From assembly GCA_947382625.1 (NCBI GenBank), contig CANDAG010000017.1, positions 1-64,000 of the forward strand: 64,000 bases of DNA, read 5' to 3'. The notes below the pieces were generated by a model. The model did not search any database. It saw only the letters and a list, made by a program, of their open reading frames with translations, and was not told the origin of the DNA. This document shows positions 6,499-14,759 of the stretch, piece after piece (position 1 is the stretch's first letter; every line of letters starts with the position of its first letter). Source of the stretch: an uncultured Lachnospiraceae bacterium. GTDB lineage: Bacteria > Bacillota > Clostridia > Lachnospirales > Lachnospiraceae. Position numbers and translations under genes: made by a program.

Positions 6499-7344
6499 GT
6501 GAATGAGATATGGCTGGATAATACTTCCCTGCCGGTAACAGGTATCTGTGATCTGTGCGCCGCCCCGGAGGACTTCTATCATGCGGACAGGACGGTGGAT
6601 TTTCATGTGCTGATCTATGTGGTACAGGGAGTGATCTATGTGACGGAGGGGGAGACAGATTATGAGATCCATCCGGGAGAGCTGCTTTTTTTAAAAAGCG
6701 GTATCCATCACTATGGGAAAAGACGGATTGGGAGAGGAACACGGTGGTACTTTGCCCATTTTTATCTGGATGAAAAAGGAGCGCTTCCGGCTTTTGTACC
6801 GGATATTGCCGCTTCGCATCCGGAGGATCCGATCCGTTATCGTGTCGGATTACCCAAAAAGCTGACAGGGCTTACAGGGAGCGGGCTGGAACGCCAGCTG
6901 ACAGAGCTGATCGATCTTTATCATTCGGAGGATCCTATGAAGAGATGGGAGATCAATGGGCAGCTCTTTTCACTGCTTGGCAGGATCGCCTTTTGGGGGC
7001 AGAAGCCAAGGCAGCCTAAGACACTCTCCGAGAACATCTGCGATTATTTAAGCAGCCGGATGGACGAGCCCTTTTCTGCAGAAAAACTGGAAAAAGCTTT
7101 TTTCCTGAGCTATAAACATATGGAAGCCGTATTTAAGAAGGAAAAGCAGATCACATTGCAGCAGTATCACAACAAAGTGCGTATGACGGAGGCCTGCAGG
7201 CTTCTTAGAACCACCCTCCTTCCGGTAGGGGAGATCGGCAAGGGGCTGGGGTATTCTGATATGCTTTATTTCAGCCGGTGCTTTCATCAGTTTACGGGAA
7301 TGAGCCCTACCCGGTACAGGAGAGAGGCTGCATCCGTTTATTGA
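6499..7344 (+). CDS. AraC-family transcriptional regulator
   Basis: 281 residues: an N-terminal cupin-like sugar-sensing domain (about 30-110, with HPGELLFLKSGIHH) and a C-terminal AraC double helix-turn-helix (about 180-275). The second helix-turn-helix carries the conserved IGKGLGYSDMLYFSRCF and GMSPTRYRRE. The GTG start has GGAGG 6 bases upstream. It is divergent from the GH127 arabinofuranosidase and is very probably its activator, responding to an arabinose-containing sugar; that link is inferred from position. A pair of hairpins follows, separating it from the convergent gene at 7446. Confidence 0.9.
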   Translation: MNEIWLDNTSLPVTGICDLCAAPEDFYHADRTVDFHVLIYVVQGVIYVTEGETDYEIHPGELLFLKSGIHHYGKRRIGRGTRWYFAHFYLDEKGALPAFVPDIAASHPEDPIRYRVGLPKKLTGLTGSGLERQLTELIDLYHSEDPMKRWEINGQLFSLLGRIAFWGQKPRQPKTLSENICDYLSSRMDEPFSAEKLEKAFFLSYKHMEAVFKKEKQITLQQYHNKVRMTEACRLLRTTLLPVGEIGKGLGYSDMLYFSRCFHQFTGMSPTRYRREAASVY

Positions 7345-7351
7345 AACAAAC

Positions 7352-7415
7352 GCCGATCCGCTTCGCGCATCGGCTTATTGCGAAAGAACATCCCGAAAGT
7401 CGGGATGTTCTTTTT
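7352..7415. terminator. Tandem hairpins between convergent genes
   Basis: Two hairpins. The first (7352-7374) pairs GCCGAT with ATCGGC and has a C-C mismatch. The second is a perfect 14-bp stem (7383-7396 with 7400-7413) with an AAG loop and a T-run. The second also has a run of A on its other side, so it should work in both directions, ending the AraC gene and the minus-strand gene at 7446. Confidence 0.85.
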
Positions 7416-7445
7416 ATCACAGTCAATTTCTCTGCAATCTTTTGG

Positions 7446-7727
7446 TTACGTGGGATAGCAATACTCCCGTTTACTGATCAGATTGTAGTAAGGAAGCGCG
7501 CGTCTGGTATACCCGTTGGTACAAACATGGATATTCTTTTGCTGCTGCTTCTCACACATTTCGTCCAATATCTCCGGAAAGAACTTCTTCGCGGAGGAGT
7601 CGGACATATCCTGCTTGGGCTGGTGCTTCTTTTCTTCGGAGGATACCTTCCGAAGAGGCGGGATCACCGCAACCGCCTGAACTTTATAGAGCGTTTCATG
7701 TCCGTATGCTTTAGCTTTTCCCTCCAT
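7446..7727 (-). CDS. Small protein of unknown function
   Basis: 93 residues, charged and without membrane segments or a recognised domain. The C-terminal half (KNIHVCTNGYTRRALPYYNL) looks like folded protein rather than noise, and the gene ends just before a bidirectional terminator, which supports it being real. The ATG at 7727 has no clear ribosome site before it; the only GGAGG lies inside the second and third codons, so the start is uncertain. It is divergent from the TerB-like operon and shares its 155-base control region. A small regulator of that operon is possible but is only a guess. Confidence 0.55.
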   Translation of the reverse strand: MEGKAKAYGHETLYKVQAVAVIPPLRKVSSEEKKHQPKQDMSDSSAKKFFPEILDEMCEKQQQKNIHVCTNGYTRRALPYYNLISKREYCYPT

Positions 7728-7806
7728 GGATCGTATTGACTGTTGCCTGTTCTATGATATATATCGGCCAAAAAGGGATTTCTCTGTACCCTGTTTGGGG
7801 ATTTTG

Positions 7807-7815
7807 TGGTACAAT
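7807..7815 (+). promoter_or_regulatory. Extended -10 promoter for the TerB-like operon
   Basis: TGG followed by TACAAT (7810-7815), an extended -10 element 68 bases before the TerB-like start. No good -35 hexamer lies 16-18 bases upstream, which is common for promoters with an extended -10. Confidence 0.45.
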
Positions 7816-7882
7816 AGGAAGCACGCTGATGCGTGTATTGATATATATTTTCTGAAAATCTAGGTGCAGGGGTACTGCTGAT

Positions 7883-9619
7883 ATGAGCAAATATGACAGA
7901 GAATACGAGGCTTTCCAAATCTTTGAGCAGGTGCAGGACGAGAAGGAGGCAGAAGTGTCCCGGCCACGGAAGGATGAAGAGACGAAAGAGCTTTCTCCCA
8001 AAAAGAGCAGAGAATGGGAGCCTGTAGAAATGGATGACTCATTTTATGAAATAGAATACGATTCCTGTCCCCTGCCGGGAGTGGGGAAGTTTGTGTTGCG
8101 GTCTCAGAAGCTGGAAGCACCGGTAAGGGATCCGGTCAGGGAAAGATTTGACCGTATGCGGGATATTGCCCGCAAAAATCAGTATCTGTATTACGAAAAT
8201 TCCCGCTTTTATGATCAAAAGATCCGGCAGGAAAATTCCAGGATTTTTTATGAGCAGGGACGGTTTATGGAGGAGTTTGAGGATCATTACGAAAAGGAAG
8301 TCCCTTTTTCCGCCTATTTTCCCAGCTATCAGGCTATGGGCTATGACCAGCTCCGGACTTACTTCACCTGGCGGACTAAGGTGCGGCAGGGGGAGATCGA
8401 GGATACCTCCATCTCTTATATTTTTTTGTATCTTTATGAACTGCTCAACCAGATCGGGGTAAGAGATGAGGAAGAAGGGGCAGACAAGCTTCTGGAGCTT
8501 TGGCTGGTCATGAGACAAAGGCAGGGGGCTATCGGTAAGTATGTGCTCAGATGGCTGAAGGATTACCATATCTATTATGAACTGCCCTGGTCTTTCAAAG
8601 AATTTATAGACCGGAACGGTTTAGAGGCCTATTATCCGGAGCTTACGGATCCTGAGGATAATTTTGAACTGCTCTGTTCCATTTCCAAATACGATGTGCG
8701 GAAATCGGTTTTTTACAAAGAGGGGCAGGAGAAGCTGATTCGGGACTGCTTTCAATTTACGCTCCGGCGATTAAAGCAGGTCTTTGAGGATAAAGGGATC
8801 GACCTGGAGGCCATGATCTTTCAGCCGGCGAAAAATATGCCCCAGTGGACGCCTTTTAAGGAGGCTTTGTTTTGTCCGGTGAGGCGGCAAAGGGACAGAC
8901 GGGTGGTGCTTTCCGAAAAGGAAATTTATTTATGCAGCGGGAACAACTGGACTTTTAGCACAAGGCTTACCACCGAAAGCGGGAAACGGCTGGTGGGGTA
9001 TATTATGAAGCAAATGGAGTCCGTTCTCCGAAAGGCTTTACACTATAAATATAAGCTTTCTTCAGGCAGCTTAAGCGGGCCGGAGGAAGAGGTGCTTCGG
9101 CAGGCAGGCATTGACTTAGAGGCAGAGGTGAAGGCGGCAACGCTGGAATTTTACCGGGAGAGCACCAAAACCGTAGTCAGTGTTGATCCGGACAGATTAC
9201 GGCAGATCCGGCAGGAGGCTCTTCAAACACAGGAGAGACTCCTGGTGCCGGAGGAGGAAGCAGCAGGGGGATTTGAGAGGCAGCCGGAACTGAAGAAGCC
9301 CGGGGCAGAGCTCCCTCCGGAAATGCAGGAGAAGCCCGGGGAAGCGTCGGATGTGGAGACAGAACGGGAGTCTGGACTGGAGGATCCCTGGACAGAATTA
9401 AAGAACGCCCTGACGGAGGTGGAGAGGCAGGCCCTTGGGATCTTATGGAGAGGCGGATCGGATATCCGGCAGTTTGCGGACAGCCACGGGATCATGCTGG
9501 AGGTTTTGGCGGAGGGGATCAACGAAAAAGCCATGGATCATGTGGGGGACGGTCTTCTGGACGGAGAGCTTGCGGTTTATGAGGACTATGCAGAGCAGAT
9601 AGAGGAAATATTATCCTGA
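7883..9619 (+). CDS. TerB-N/TerB-C domain protein
   Basis: 578 residues. After a charged, probably disordered head (1-45) comes a TerB-N-like region at about 60-300 with VPFSAYFPSYQAMGYDQL, TYFTWR and the helical FLYLYELLNQIG pattern. A charged linker at about 445-500 leads to a TerB-C-like end (about 500-578) with ALGILWRGG, ADSHGIMLEVLAEGINEKAMD and GDGLLDGE. The central metal-binding TerB domain found in tellurite proteins is not apparent. Family knowledge: TerB-N/TerB-C proteins have been linked by genomic context to ATPases and helicases in predicted DNA-processing complexes. Here it heads exactly such an operon, 56 bases before the ATPase. It is probably an adaptor or scaffold. Confidence 0.82.
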   Translation: MSKYDREYEAFQIFEQVQDEKEAEVSRPRKDEETKELSPKKSREWEPVEMDDSFYEIEYDSCPLPGVGKFVLRSQKLEAPVRDPVRERFDRMRDIARKNQYLYYENSRFYDQKIRQENSRIFYEQGRFMEEFEDHYEKEVPFSAYFPSYQAMGYDQLRTYFTWRTKVRQGEIEDTSISYIFLYLYELLNQIGVRDEEEGADKLLELWLVMRQRQGAIGKYVLRWLKDYHIYYELPWSFKEFIDRNGLEAYYPELTDPEDNFELLCSISKYDVRKSVFYKEGQEKLIRDCFQFTLRRLKQVFEDKGIDLEAMIFQPAKNMPQWTPFKEALFCPVRRQRDRRVVLSEKEIYLCSGNNWTFSTRLTTESGKRLVGYIMKQMESVLRKALHYKYKLSSGSLSGPEEEVLRQAGIDLEAEVKAATLEFYRESTKTVVSVDPDRLRQIRQEALQTQERLLVPEEEAAGGFERQPELKKPGAELPPEMQEKPGEASDVETERESGLEDPWTELKNALTEVERQALGILWRGGSDIRQFADSHGIMLEVLAEGINEKAMDHVGDGLLDGELAVYEDYAEQIEEILS

Positions 9620-9675
9620 GGAAGAGAGAGGATCAGTCTGAGAAATTCCCCGGGATCAGCAGGAGGAATAGAAAT

Positions 9676-11004
9676 ATGAGTAACCAGGTACCGGTAAGGA
9701 TCGCGAATATTCTCATCAATGCCTTAAAGGGCGGCGTGGTGCCAAGGACAGGATTGGAATATATTACGGTGGGACGGAGTCAGGAGATCGCCGCTATTTT
9801 GCATGATATCGATATGATCGAGGAAGGAGGCGCATCCTTCCGCTTTATCGTAGGGAAATACGGCAGCGGCAAAAGCTTTCTGCTCCAGACGATCCGGAAC
9901 CATGCCACAGCCAGGGGCTTTGCGGTGGTGGATGCGGACCTTTCGCCGGAGAGACGGTTTGCCGGAACAAAGGGACAGGGGCTGGCTACCTATAAGGAGC
10001 TGATTAAGAATCTTTCCACCAAGGCAAAGCCTGATGGGGGCGCATTGCCCCTGATATTGGAAAAATGGATTTCCGGCATCCAGACGGCGGTCAAAAGCCA
10101 GAATCCGGGCCGGTTTTCCGGGGAGGATGAGGCCTTTGACGCTCTGGTGGAGCAGCAGATCTACGGGGTGGCGGGCTCCTTGGAGGGGATGGTCAACGGC
10201 TTTGAATTTGCGCGGGCGGTGGTTCTGTACTGGAAGGCCTATAAGGAGGATGACAGTGCGCTGAAATCCAACGTGCTTCGGTGGTTCCGGGGCGAGTACC
10301 CTTCCCGGAAGGAGGCGAAGGCAGATCTGGGGATCAACTTTATCGTTACAGATGAGACCTGGTATGACTTTTTAAAAATTTTTGCGGCCTTTCTGGTGGG
10401 AGCAGGCTATAAGGGTCTGCTGGTGATGATCGATGAGCTGGTGAATATTTTTAAGATCTCCAATTCCATCACCAGAGCCAACAATTATGAAAAGATCCTT
10501 ACCATGTACAACGATGTGCTTCAGGGCAAGGCGCAGCATATCGGATTTTTGATGGGCGGCACGCCCCAGTGCATAGAGGATAAATATAAGGGCGTGTTCA
10601 GCTATGAAGCCCTGCGCTCCCGGCTGGCGGAGGGGCATTTTGCATCGGAGGGGTTGAAGGATTTTTCCGCACCCATAATCCGTCTTAAGATGCTGACCCA
10701 GGAGGAAATGTATATACTTGTTGAAAAGCTTTTAAACATCCATGCCGGTCTCTACCATTACACGCCCGGGCTTACCGATGAGGATCTGGTTTATTTCCTC
10801 ACGGTGGAATATAACCGGGTGGGGGCTGCAAGCCATATTACCCCCAGGGAGATCATCCGCGACTTTATTGAACTGATCAATATTCTGTACCAGAATCCGG
10901 AGAAGACTCTTGGGGAAATTCTGGGAGACAACAGCTTCGAACTGGCAAAAAGCGGTGTGCTGGAGGAAGAGATCAGCGACGAGTTCCAGGATTTTGAAAT
11001 CTGA
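9676..11004 (+). CDS. BrxD-like (DUF2791) P-loop ATPase
   Basis: 442-residue AAA-type ATPase. Walker A is GKYGSGKS at 60-67, Walker B is GLLVMIDE at 247-254, and a sensor-like segment FLMGGTPQ follows near 290. The opening GGVVPRTGLEYITVGRSQE and the LRSRLAEGHF and PRE(I)IRDF segments fit the BrxC/BrxD (DUF2791) family as I know it; BrxD is an accessory ATPase of type 2 BREX phage defence. No BREX core genes (pglX, pglZ, brxL) occur nearby, so this is a stand-alone setting. AGGAGG lies 9 bases before the ATG. It sits between the TerB-like protein and the helicase. Confidence 0.85.
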   Translation: MSNQVPVRIANILINALKGGVVPRTGLEYITVGRSQEIAAILHDIDMIEEGGASFRFIVGKYGSGKSFLLQTIRNHATARGFAVVDADLSPERRFAGTKGQGLATYKELIKNLSTKAKPDGGALPLILEKWISGIQTAVKSQNPGRFSGEDEAFDALVEQQIYGVAGSLEGMVNGFEFARAVVLYWKAYKEDDSALKSNVLRWFRGEYPSRKEAKADLGINFIVTDETWYDFLKIFAAFLVGAGYKGLLVMIDELVNIFKISNSITRANNYEKILTMYNDVLQGKAQHIGFLMGGTPQCIEDKYKGVFSYEALRSRLAEGHFASEGLKDFSAPIIRLKMLTQEEMYILVEKLLNIHAGLYHYTPGLTDEDLVYFLTVEYNRVGAASHITPREIIRDFIELINILYQNPEKTLGEILGDNSFELAKSGVLEEEISDEFQDFEI

Positions 11005-11042
11005 CCCCGGAAAACAACGAAGGGGATAAGGGGGGATACATC

Positions 11043-13259
11043 ATGAACGCATTTGAGAGGCTGGCGCCTTTTATACAGGATTTTATTTATCAGAATAAAT
11101 GGGAGGAGCTTCATGGCAATCAGGTGGCGGCCTGTGAGGTGATCTTTGACAGTGACGATAATCTGCTGCTGTCCTCCGGCACAGCTTCCGGTAAGACGGA
11201 GGCTGCTTTTTTACCGGTGCTCACTGAGCTTTATGAACACCCCTCCGCTTCGGTGGGGGTGATGTATATTTCCCCCCTGAAGGCGCTGATCAACGACCAG
11301 TTTAAGCGGCTGGATCTTTTGCTGGAAAATTCCAATATCCCGGTGACCAAATGGCATGGGGATGCTTCCCTGACGCAGAAAAACAGGCTGATGAAGAATC
11401 CGGAAGGGGTTTTGCAGATCACGCCGGAGTCCCTGGAAAGCCTTCTGACCAACAAGCGGGGAGCCTGTATGACCATGTTTTCCGATCTGCGGTTTGTGAT
11501 CATTGACGAGGTACACAGCTTTATGCGGGACGTCCGGGGCTTACAGCTTCTGTGTGTGCTTGAGCGGCTGAAAAATCTGACCGGCGTCAATCCCAGAAGG
11601 GTGGGATTATCCGCTACCTTAGGGGATGTGTCTCTGGCGCAGAACTGGCTGAATGCAGGGACCGGAAGGGAATGTGCGGCGCCCCTTTTTGACGAAGGGA
11701 AGAAGCGGGTAAGACTTCATATTGAGCGGTTTGTGAATTATTCCGACAAAAGGGATTTCGAGGAGCGGGACGGCAGTAAGAATAAGATTGGTGACAGCTC
11801 CGGCGGGGATATCGGAGACCGGGAGCATTATGATTATCTTTTTAAGCAGACATTGGACAAAAAGACCATCATCTTTGCCAACAGCCGGGAGGAGATAGAG
11901 CTGGTGATGGCACATCTACGGGAAACTGCCCTGAAGAACAAGGCGCCGGATGTTTACCGGGTCCATCACGGAAATGTGTCTGCGCTGCTTAGGGAAAGCA
12001 CCGAGGATGAGATGAAGTCCACCGATGAAAAGATCGTCACCGGGGCTACGGTGACCTTAGAGCTCGGGATCGATATCGGTTCTCTTGACCAGGCCGTACA
12101 GATCGGAGCCCCCATGAACGTTTCCAGCTTTGCCCAGCGGCTGGGGCGATGCGGGCGCAGGGGGCAGGTTCCCCAGATCCTGTTTACCTTTGTGGAGAGC
12201 CTTAAGATCAATTCCTCAGATACTCTTGGCCCCATTAACTGGGAATTTATACGGACCATAGCCATTATAGAGCTTTATCTGCGGGAGCGCTGGATCGAGC
12301 CGATCCCGCCTTTAAAGCATGCGTATAACCTTTTATACCATCAGACCATGAGCTGTTTAAAAAGCAGCGGGGAAATGTCGCCGGCAGGACTTGCCCAGGC
12401 TGTTCTTTCCCTGTCCTGTTTCCGGGAGATTTCCAAAGAGGATTACAAAAAGCTTCTGGGATATCTGATCCATATCGATCAGCTTGAGCGCACAGAGCAC
12501 GGCGGGCTTGTGATCGGACGGGCAGGGGAAAAGGTGGTAAACAGTCACAAGTTCCTGACGGTTTTTCTTGCGCCGGAATATCTGCTGGTAAAGGATGAGA
12601 ACCGCACCATCGGTACGGTGGACAAGGTGTATCCGGTGGGAACCCGTTTTGCCCTGGCAGGGCTTTCCTGGGAGACGGTGGATGTGAACGTGAAATCCAA
12701 GGTGCTCTTTGTCAAGCGGGTGGAAGGGATCTCAGCGGTGGACTGGGATATGGATTTTGAGGTGGATCTGCACACCATCCTGGTCCGGAAGGTCCGCAGC
12801 ATCCTGAAGGGGGAGGAGGAATATCCCTATCTGAGCCAAAGGTGCCGGGAACGCTTAAACGAGATACGCTATATTTCCCGCAACAGCGGTATTCTGGAAC
12901 ATCTGGCCACGCCCCTTTCGGATAAGAAATTCGCGGTTTTTCCCTGGGTGGGGACCCGGCAGCTTACCACCCTTCATTATGCGCTGCTGCAAAGAAAAAT
13001 AAAGAGCAGGAGGCTCTGGAGCACCACTTTGTATCTGGAGGTGATCTTTGAGGGAACCGCACAGGAGCTGGAAGCTGTGATCAGGGAAATCCTGGGATCT
13101 GATCTGGATCTGTATTCGCTTCCTCTGCCGGATAAGGTGCAGCTTCGGGGGAAGTATAATGAGTTTGTTCCGGCAGAGCTTCTGCGGAAGCAGTTTATAG
13201 AGGATTATCTGGATTTTGAGGGACTTAAGGAAGGGATGGCGCTTTTGGAGGAGCCTTAA
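11043..13259 (+). CDS. Lhr-like DEVH-box helicase
   Basis: 738-residue superfamily 2 helicase with all motifs present: I SGTASGKTEAA (45-55), Ia SPLKALINDQ, II DEVH (155-158), III SAT (190-192), IV FANSREEIE, V ATVTLELGIDIG and VI QRLGRCGRRG (365-374). The Lhr-type wording of motifs V and VI and the C-terminal part (about 430-738) suggest a compact Lhr or BrxHI-like enzyme, about half the length of full Lhr. It follows the ATPase by 38 bases with a GGGGGG site. The expected role is ATP-driven unwinding or translocation on nucleic acid together with the two upstream proteins. No nuclease motif is seen. Confidence 0.9.
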   Translation: MNAFERLAPFIQDFIYQNKWEELHGNQVAACEVIFDSDDNLLLSSGTASGKTEAAFLPVLTELYEHPSASVGVMYISPLKALINDQFKRLDLLLENSNIPVTKWHGDASLTQKNRLMKNPEGVLQITPESLESLLTNKRGACMTMFSDLRFVIIDEVHSFMRDVRGLQLLCVLERLKNLTGVNPRRVGLSATLGDVSLAQNWLNAGTGRECAAPLFDEGKKRVRLHIERFVNYSDKRDFEERDGSKNKIGDSSGGDIGDREHYDYLFKQTLDKKTIIFANSREEIELVMAHLRETALKNKAPDVYRVHHGNVSALLRESTEDEMKSTDEKIVTGATVTLELGIDIGSLDQAVQIGAPMNVSSFAQRLGRCGRRGQVPQILFTFVESLKINSSDTLGPINWEFIRTIAIIELYLRERWIEPIPPLKHAYNLLYHQTMSCLKSSGEMSPAGLAQAVLSLSCFREISKEDYKKLLGYLIHIDQLERTEHGGLVIGRAGEKVVNSHKFLTVFLAPEYLLVKDENRTIGTVDKVYPVGTRFALAGLSWETVDVNVKSKVLFVKRVEGISAVDWDMDFEVDLHTILVRKVRSILKGEEEYPYLSQRCRERLNEIRYISRNSGILEHLATPLSDKKFAVFPWVGTRQLTTLHYALLQRKIKSRRLWSTTLYLEVIFEGTAQELEAVIREILGSDLDLYSLPLPDKVQLRGKYNEFVPAELLRKQFIEDYLDFEGLKEGMALLEEP

Positions 13260-13305
13260 GCAGCAAAAGAAACGATAAATAGCGATTGAAAAGAAAGGAC
13301 AGCCT

Positions 13306-14148
13306 ATGTCAAAGAAATGGTATCGGCAGGGAGAAGCCCTGCTCCAGGAAATAAAGGAAGCAATGCCGCAGCAAAACGAGCTATTATTCTGGTGTCTGGG
13401 TCAGTGCGGATTTGCCTTCAAAAAAGAAAAAACAGTGTATATTGACCCGGTGCTGAATGATATTACAGGCTCAGATGGAAGCACAAGGCGTCATTATCCT
13501 GCTCCTTTTGCACCGGAGGCCGTAGGTGCTGATTATGTGCTCTGCACCCATGGTCACTATGACCATCTTGCAGTGCCAACGGTCATGGGAATTGCCGGTG
13601 CGAATCCGGACGCCAGATTCATTGTGCCGGGAGAGTGCGCAGAGATTTTGAAAAAAGCGGGAATGGAAGAGGAATGTATCATAGAAGCCGTAGCGGGAGA
13701 GAGTATTACTCTGCCGGGGCTTAAGGTATTTCCCATTGCGGCGGCCCATCCGGAGTACCGCAAAACTGAACGGGGAGGGGATACAGCCCTTTGTTATGAG
13801 ATCACCATGGGAGACATCCGTCTTTTACACATGGGAGATACTTACTTGACAGCCCAATTGCTTACAGATCTGCAAAAACGCGAGAGCCCGGATCTGTTCT
13901 TCTCAGCCATCAACGGTACAGACTATTTCCGCACCGCCGGAGGCTGCATCGGCAACTTAAGCGCCATAGAGACCGCACGCCTTGCGGTGATGCTGAAGGC
14001 GGATATGACGATCCCCATGCATTATGATATGATGATGGGAAATACCGCAGATCCCCTGGACTTTGTGAGAGTTTTCAGGGAACTGGATGGTGCCGCAAAG
14101 TGGCACATGCCTGCACTGGGGGAGGGTGTAGTGTATCGGAAGGTGTGA
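13306..14148 (+). CDS. UlaG-like metallo-beta-lactamase-fold hydrolase
   Basis: 280 residues. The metal motif THGHYDH (near residue 84) and further ligands in HMGDTYLT and MHYDM fit the UlaG-like (L-ascorbate-6-phosphate lactonase) branch of the metallo-beta-lactamase superfamily. It starts 46 bases after the helicase with AAAGGA upstream and no terminator between, so it may be the fourth gene of the TerB-like operon. Equally it could be a metabolic lactonase that happens to follow; there are no ascorbate genes nearby. It converges on the TetR gene with a 35-base gap. Confidence 0.85.
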   Translation: MSKKWYRQGEALLQEIKEAMPQQNELLFWCLGQCGFAFKKEKTVYIDPVLNDITGSDGSTRRHYPAPFAPEAVGADYVLCTHGHYDHLAVPTVMGIAGANPDARFIVPGECAEILKKAGMEEECIIEAVAGESITLPGLKVFPIAAAHPEYRKTERGGDTALCYEITMGDIRLLHMGDTYLTAQLLTDLQKRESPDLFFSAINGTDYFRTAGGCIGNLSAIETARLAVMLKADMTIPMHYDMMMGNTADPLDFVRVFRELDGAAKWHMPALGEGVVYRKV

Positions 14149-14183
14149 TGGGACGATCTGAGCATAGAAAAACACGGGAGCAG

Positions 14184-14759
14184 CTATCTGATCCCTTCAG
14201 ATACCGCACTTTTAATACAGGATTTCAGTGTAAGGGAGAGATAGGCAGTCATCTCCTCCCTTGTGCGGACACTTCTGTCAGTGAACCAGTCCAGAAGGAT
14301 ACCGGTCAGAGCGTTAATATAAAAGTCGCATAAGAATTGCTTGTAGTTTGGATCAAGGGGTAAGGCTGTTTCCTTTTCGGCTTCTTCAATGATCATCTCC
14401 ATATATATCTTAAAGTCTGCAAAGAAAAACCGTTTCATGCCTTCTCTGCCCACAGAGTCATAGACGCAGTTGAGAATATGGCTGTTGGCATCTACATAAT
14501 CGATGACAAAGCTGATCACTTCCTCATAATCCTTCGGCATGTGAAACTGCTTTACAACCGTCAAAGCTTCCTGCTCCAGCATCCAGTGGAGCAGGTCGTA
14601 AATATCCTCAAAGTGATAGTAAAAGGTTTTGCGGTTCAGATTACAGTCAGCGCAGATCTCGCTGACTGTAATCTGGGAAAGGGGTTTTAATTCCATATGT
14701 TTTTTCAGAGAGCAGACAAAGGCCTGACGGGTGTGCAGGCTCATTTCTTCATGTGTCAT
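14184..14759 (-). CDS. TetR-family transcriptional regulator
   Basis: 191 residues: an N-terminal TetR helix-turn-helix (about 10-55, with ITVSEICADCNLNRKTFYYHFEDIYDLL) and a C-terminal ligand domain like that of the DhaS-type TetR proteins. AAGGAG lies about 8 bases before the ATG. It is the last gene of the minus-strand operon MMPL exporter, GLUG protein, TetR (31-base gap), so it most likely represses that operon. The inverted repeat at 20799-20810 next to the operon promoter is a candidate site. Confidence 0.9.
   Translation of the reverse strand: MTHEEMSLHTRQAFVCSLKKHMELKPLSQITVSEICADCNLNRKTFYYHFEDIYDLLHWMLEQEALTVVKQFHMPKDYEEVISFVIDYVDANSHILNCVYDSVGREGMKRFFFADFKIYMEMIIEEAEKETALPLDPNYKQFLCDFYINALTGILLDWFTDRSVRTREEMTAYLSLTLKSCIKSAVSEGIR

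Follow-up and report, generated by a model that had tools for sequence, protein, structure and literature searches.

A probable Shango anti-phage operon in a Lachnospiraceae bacterium, with a fast-evolving SngA that lacks a detectable TerB domain

The window studied here is a stretch of 64,000 nucleotides from an uncultured Lachnospiraceae bacterium (GenBank assembly GCA_947382625.1, contig CANDAG010000017.1, positions 1 to 64,000 of the forward strand). It carries three genes, here called sngA, sngB and sngC (Table 1), which a preliminary description of the DNA had read as a tightly spaced trio encoding a TerB_N/TerB_C protein, a DUF2791 ATPase and a superfamily 2 (SF2) helicase. The list of open reading frames (ORFs) and a Pfam scan agree with this. 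All three genes are intact and start with ATG, the intergenic gaps are 56 and 38 bp, and the three families that the description had named for checking are all matched: SngA contains TerB_N (PF13208) at residues 110-273 (E 2e-29) and TerB_C (PF15615) at 425-574 (E 1.3e-14), and BrxC_BrxD (PF10923) covers residues 7-417 of SngB (E 2.6e-158). SngC has the DEAD (E 4e-27) and Helicase_C (E 2.4e-15) domains, with a match to WH_Lhr that is below the cut-off (21.6 versus 27 bits). There is no nuclease domain in any of the three proteins by Pfam.

The PADLOC models identify the trio as Shango. The SngA model is matched at E 5.4e-69 (residues 87-577 on model positions 69-527 of 528), the SngB model at E 9.2e-180 (residues 2-440 on 3-437 of 439) and the SngC model at E 5.7e-221 (residues 2-730 on 2-715 of 720), and the matches lie in the order SngA, SngB, SngC, closely spaced on one strand. 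A plasmid copy in Sulfitobacter faviae is labelled Shango in the literature (PMC10221251), with the same coordinates as our record L137, and its three proteins match the same three models. Window SngB is 43% identical to the Sulfitobacter protein over 408 aa and SngC 32% over 654 aa. The Shango of PA14 is a three-gene operon encoding a TerB-like protein, an ATPase and a DEAD/DEAH helicase, and in PAO1 it changed the efficiency of plating of many phages 10-100-fold and gave strong protection in liquid; the effects were not seen for every phage, and the system was also found in E. coli (PMC10250203). Shango is credited to Millman et al. 2022 and Johnson et al. 2022 in PMC10952713, which lists PF05099 (TerB) for it. 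The window trio has the same three kinds of protein as the PA14 and E. coli systems and the same gene order as PA14. We conclude that sngA-sngB-sngC is very probably a complete Shango anti-phage operon, one that is acquired or lost as a whole. The trio is a new example of an already published system, named and tested before, and not the undescribed minimal system first proposed; the same identity supports the defence function that had been guessed for it.

Table 1. Features around the sng genes, in window coordinates
Feature	Coordinates	Strand	Basis or remark
sngA: TerB_N/TerB_C protein, 578 aa	7883..9619	+	PADLOC SngA; PF13208 and PF15615
sngB: BrxC/D-family AAA+ ATPase, 442 aa	9676..11004	+	PADLOC SngB; PF10923; invariant Walker residues
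sngC: Lhr/BrxHI-like SF2 helicase, 738 aa	11043..13259	+	PADLOC SngC; DEAD and Helicase_C; conserved motifs
Block between convergent AraC and TetR genes	7345..14183	.	Absent from congener G021 (L031: AraC and TetR adjacent)
Metal-dependent hydrolase gene (Lactamase_B_2) behind sngC	13306-14148		Inside the AraC-TetR block
Upstream DNA	7440-7780		Conserved next to Shango in G012 and G020
Small conserved frame	7449-7727	-	About 85-93 codons; no clear common start

The catalytic motifs reported in the preliminary description are present in the window and conserved in the relatives. The Walker A motif of SngB, GKYGSGKS, is at residues 60-67 and Walker B ends at D253-E254; G60, G63, G65, K66, S67, D253 and E254 are invariant in an alignment of 10 sequences. 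SngC has DEVH at 155-158, and in an 80-row alignment (window included, some rows cut at contig ends, gaps ignored) conservation reaches 90% or more at GKT (motif I), at D, E and H within motif II, at SAT and at QR-GR-GRR (motif VI). Rows L027, L033 and L039 were left out for both proteins as duplicates or broken. The ratio of non-synonymous to synonymous divergence (dN/dS) is about 0.05-0.11 for SngB and SngC, which indicates strong purifying selection. A PDB sequence search with SngB gave just an ABC ATPase stretch at E 0.005. The best PDB matches of the SngC core, over residues 35-378, are 5v9x and 7lhl, which are titled ATP-dependent DNA helicases and which we take to be Lhr. The core is thus shared with Lhr helicases, whereas SngC is 738 aa long and its WH_Lhr match does not reach the Pfam cut-off.

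Occurrence of the trio was followed in a panel of 60 genomes (its own, 35 others of the genus and 24 of the order). SngA, SngB (E<1e-100) and SngC (E<1e-120) occur in one identical set of 10 genomes, and the trio is in 4 of the 36 genomes of the genus. At E≤0.001 SngB is found in 13 genomes, the extra three (G021, G025 and G029) being weak split matches of at most 50 bits, and SngC in 58, because other SF2 helicases match. In G043 both sngB and sngC are split over two frames, through either damage to the copy or an error of assembly.

The trio of the window, G012 and G020 is near a TetR gene, and beyond TetR come the gene of a large exported protein and that of an MMPL transporter. Between the trio and TetR there is a bile-salt-hydrolase-like gene in G012 and the metal-dependent hydrolase gene in the window, and the left flank also varies (AraC/GH127 in the window versus carAB in G012 and G020). 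In G021 the AraC and TetR flanking genes adjoin with nothing between them, giving an empty site, and in G002 the trio is at another position (L026). Of the 37 genus genomes, 21 have the MMPL gene at an identity of at least 75%. The flank could be read in 20 of these (G023 ends at a contig edge) and was informative in 19 (L054 is too short beyond TetR); over the 5 to 11 kb or so that were read past it, the trio was found in 3 of the 19. Three of the 16 flanks without it (L051, L053 and L055) gave no TetR match either. The empty G021 site, the 3 of 19 flanks with the trio, the other position in G002 and the differing left flanks together show that the trio is gained, lost or moved as a unit. It is therefore not universal and syntenic, a pattern that the preliminary description had named as one that would tell against its proposal.

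Near the same flank there are SF2 helicases of about 1400 aa, 26-31% identical to SngC (L044:5982-10193 and L053:6113-10408). Similar long open frames that match SngC are common in the genus.

On a wider scale, at least 585 SngB relatives were confirmed in a scan that took one genome for each species, and the best 80 were kept for locus analysis, a sample that leans to near relatives. A match to the SngA profile is found at 74 of these 80 loci, SngC at 73 and all three genes at 69, and in 63 the order is sngA-sngB-sngC on one strand within 500 bp. The frames of sngA and sngB overlap in 49 of the 69 complete loci, often by 4 bp (starts were chosen mechanically, and overlaps may be overstated), which suggests translational coupling. 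Eleven of the 80 loci are without one or two partners, some of them at contig ends. SngB without a nearby SngA or SngC was seen in two related Oscillospiraceae metagenome-assembled genomes, L083, visible for about 3 kb on each side, and L084, visible for just 1.1 kb upstream before the contig edge.

Among 72,556 plasmid records, 692 have an SngB match at E≤1e-5, in every case below 60% identity, and 542 of the 692 are predicted to be conjugative; the weak tail of these matches may include BrxD. There was no match at this threshold among 50,697 phage records. In a quick tree of 83 SngB sequences, the protein of Raoultibacter timonensis, a Coriobacterial isolate of the Actinomycetota, falls together with two Bacillota rows (SH-aLRT 92), a position suggestive of transfer.

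The main point of interest at the locus is a fast-evolving SngA without a TerB domain. The central TerB domain, PF05099, was not found in window SngA by Pfam, and at E≤0.01 it is absent from all 79 near-relative SngA proteins scanned, window included. These comprise 62 aligned proteins (the window and 61 near relatives with a profile score above 350 and a length of 480-700 aa, long forms left out), seven longer or more distant ones (L034, L038, L099, L102, L111, L114 and L121) and ten further rows, several of them cut at contig ends; most of these records come from Bacillota and a few from Actinomycetota, Planctomycetota and Calditrichota. PF05099 was also not found in two Paenibacillus copies. 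It is present in all five others sampled, from Sulfitobacter, Klebsiella, Cetobacterium, Mesorhizobium and the archaeon Halocatena, whose match of 24.3 bits falls slightly short of the cut-off of 24.4. The Klebsiella (769 aa) and Sulfitobacter (847 aa) proteins that carry PF05099 are about 190-270 aa longer than window SngA. When the 62 near-relative proteins were compared as a profile with the five from other phyla, the TerB_N part alone aligned (117 columns, probability 77.6%), and a PDB sequence search with SngA gave no match at E≤0.1. Because the named PADLOC SngA model still covers the protein, the missing PF05099 would be a feature of the lineage rather than an exclusion from Shango, and may conceal a highly diverged TerB domain.

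Among the four copies in the genus, the dN of SngA is 4.2-5.3 times that of SngB, and it exceeds the dN of the neighbouring TetR gene in all three comparable pairs. The dS across these copies is 0.87 to 2.4, near saturation, and we therefore claim fast evolution for SngA and not positive selection. Conservation within SngA is highest in TerB_N (64-81%) and lowest in the linker at 455-510 (26-39%).

In two relatives a radical SAM domain (PF04055) precedes SngA in one fused protein (L102:5332-8001 and L099:2084-4609), and the quick tree places their SngB proteins as sisters (SH-aLRT 93). A search of 90 loci with the L102 domain gave no other ORF like this fusion. The radical SAM domain presumably resembles those of DNA-repair lyase-like radical SAM proteins. 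There are also short SngA-like proteins of 199 aa (L035:6823-7422) and 165 aa (L036:6869-7366), which match the SngA profile weakly (33-36 bits), have no Pfam match and are encoded in front of a divergent SngB (42% and 38% identity). L035 and L036 are possible reduced Shango variants.

We found no published mechanism for Shango in the literature searched, as far as the available parts of the papers go. BrxD is an ORC-Cdc6 AAA+ ATPase for which a role in loading or activating BrxHI, in the manner of replicative helicase loaders, has been proposed (PMC12839542), and SngC, BrxHI, DruE and DpdJ are potentially a distinct helicase clade (PMC12278908). As SngB and SngC are the counterparts of the BrxD/BrxHI pair, SngB, an ORC/Cdc6-like AAA+ ATPase, may load or regulate the SngC helicase on phage DNA. 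SngA would be a fast-evolving adaptor that recognises the triggering phage DNA structure or protein and decides when or where this happens, and SngC would be the motor, unwinding or remodelling phage DNA and so blocking its replication or handing it over to host nucleases. As there is no nuclease domain in the trio, Shango would not be expected to destroy DNA by itself. On the Sulfitobacter plasmid (L137:6015-8697) a PD-(D/E)XK nuclease gene starts 2 bp behind sngC and is followed by a UvrD-helicase gene, apparently in one operon with Shango; this pair fits a hand-over to nucleases, in one case. We put forward this division into loader, motor and recognition subunit as a tentative though reasonably plausible mechanism. 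Among known systems, Hachiman (HamAB) is comparable as a defence helicase, one that senses DNA state (PMC12278908), but it has two subunits with an effector nuclease, and the best HamB model reaches just 55 bits here. A further step, which we consider rather doubtful, would see the Shango of the Bacillota, with its transfers, as a separate lineage that has no TerB domain and uses a fast-evolving SngA as an exchangeable adaptor; in view of the rare radical SAM fusions and the short SngA-like forms, damage to phage DNA or its modification may be what this adaptor senses when it determines where the SngB-loaded SngC acts.

The preliminary description had suggested a survey of gene neighbourhoods. 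It showed that the trio recurs as a unit, as given above, but not that defence genes are enriched near it. In the window, 47 of the 48 other non-overlapping ORFs of at least 100 aa were scanned with PADLOC. Five families were matched at E≤1e-10 (mad3, mad8, mad2 and, twice, AriA), which are probably ABC ATPase cross-matches, and no other defence gene was recognised among the 47 proteins. For the relatives we took 249 flanking ORFs of 110-900 aa, up to two per side of the 80 SngB loci, and scanned 113 of them, namely the closest ORF on every side for which sngA or sngC had been located, to a length of roughly 620 aa. Matches to 73 PADLOC families were obtained, none of the first 25 of these with more than two members. 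Those to DpdF, PsyrT and PDC-S01 look like RecQ-type helicases (HRDC, DEAD and Helicase_C in two of them) and DUF4143 ATPases, and the commonest Pfam families listed among the neighbours are metabolic or regulatory. Individual copies do have defence genes beside them: a Klebsiella plasmid Shango adjoins Gabija genes with one IS transposase between, and the Cetobacterium copy adjoins a type I restriction system.

Several observations weigh against reading the locus as a mobile anti-phage operon with a rapidly adapting SngA. No PADLOC family is listed for more than two of the 113 neighbours, and thus there is no defence enrichment (no background set was compared). The GC content of the trio (0.504-0.524, flanks 0.503) is no sign of recent foreign origin, and the 84-93% identity of SngB and SngC across the genus would be expected under vertical maintenance as well. 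SngA is matched weakly and over a short length in one genome of the 10, G050 (33.8 bits), and window SngA resembles that of Sulfitobacter weakly (31% over 100 aa, E 0.001) and has no TerB domain. The high dN of SngA may reflect weak constraint instead of an arms race. Clostridial and rumen Shango systems in the literature, from rumen genomes and Clostridium perfringens, are software detections only in the available parts of PMC13356809 and PMC13251782; a literature search for a link between Shango and Lachnospiraceae gave mostly unrelated work. Anti-phage activity, amounting to moderate protection from several phages though not from all, has been published for other copies and is a prediction for this one.

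These points bear first on the possibility that the trio is a chromosomal DNA-repair or genome-maintenance module of the Clostridia, related to Shango but with no main anti-phage role. The mostly metabolic or regulatory neighbours, the strong purifying selection on SngB and SngC and the two radical SAM fusions, with their presumed likeness to DNA-repair lyases, are what such a module would predict. A maintenance gene set is not expected to be as patchy as this one (4 of 36 genomes in the genus, with SngA absent from 50 of the 60), nor to have SngB relatives common on predicted conjugative plasmids, and we judge this explanation unlikely. In addition, homologues of the whole trio are anti-phage (PMC10250203). 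The same plasmid records bear on a second possibility, that the system acts against plasmids or transformation more than against phages. A helicase with an AAA+ module could in principle act on any incoming DNA, but SngB relatives are themselves common on plasmids and the published effect concerns phages (PMC10250203), so we think this highly improbable.

The preliminary description had also pointed to kinship with BrxD and BrxHI of type 2 BREX and had noted the lack of BREX partners nearby; both observations hold. The two systems have their ATPase and helicase families in common, and in both the two genes are closely paired (PMC12839542), PF10923 spans BrxC and BrxD, and PADLOC BrxD and BrxHI are matched at E 3.8e-45 and 5.1e-116. 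PglX, PglZ and PglW, however, have no match among the 47 other window proteins, and a PglZ search of the whole genome gave one marginal partial match, on another contig (25.2 bits, cut-off 25). A remnant or minimal type 2 BREX, BrxD and BrxHI without the rest, can be set aside as extremely unlikely, since the Shango models score far higher than the BREX models (596.4 versus 152.8 bits for SngB, 734.1 versus 386.6 for SngC), SngB reaches 156.6 bits against a cut-off of 350 for the NCBIfam BREX_BrxD equivalog NF033438, and a TerB_N/TerB_C protein stands in front, with an SngA-profile match at 74 of the 80 SngB loci. The idea that the TerB-like protein replaces the usual BREX partners found no specific support. 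We therefore keep to the assignment of the trio to Shango.

The other features between the AraC and TetR genes do not look like parts of the Shango operon. The metal-dependent hydrolase gene has a match at E≤1e-40 in 2 of the 37 genus genomes, and nothing next to the other Shango loci that were read matches it with a score over 80 bits; by its look it is outside the system. The upstream DNA was considered as a leader RNA or regulator of Shango. Rfam gave nothing there up to E 1, and although the DNA is matched in 15 of the 37 genus genomes, 12 of these have no adjoining Shango copy; for both reasons it was rejected. The loci of seven relatives, when compared, share a conserved frame there, which is an unannotated small protein or a piece of one. 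Promoter matches across 7200-14300 are at chance level (five found, 6.1 expected).

The candidate of the preliminary description is settled as Shango, and it provides a clostridial example with an empty site for comparison. The TerB-free SngA suggests that the TerB domain, which is often used to label Shango, may be dispensable, and the contrast in dN between SngA and SngB points to SngA as the recognition subunit.

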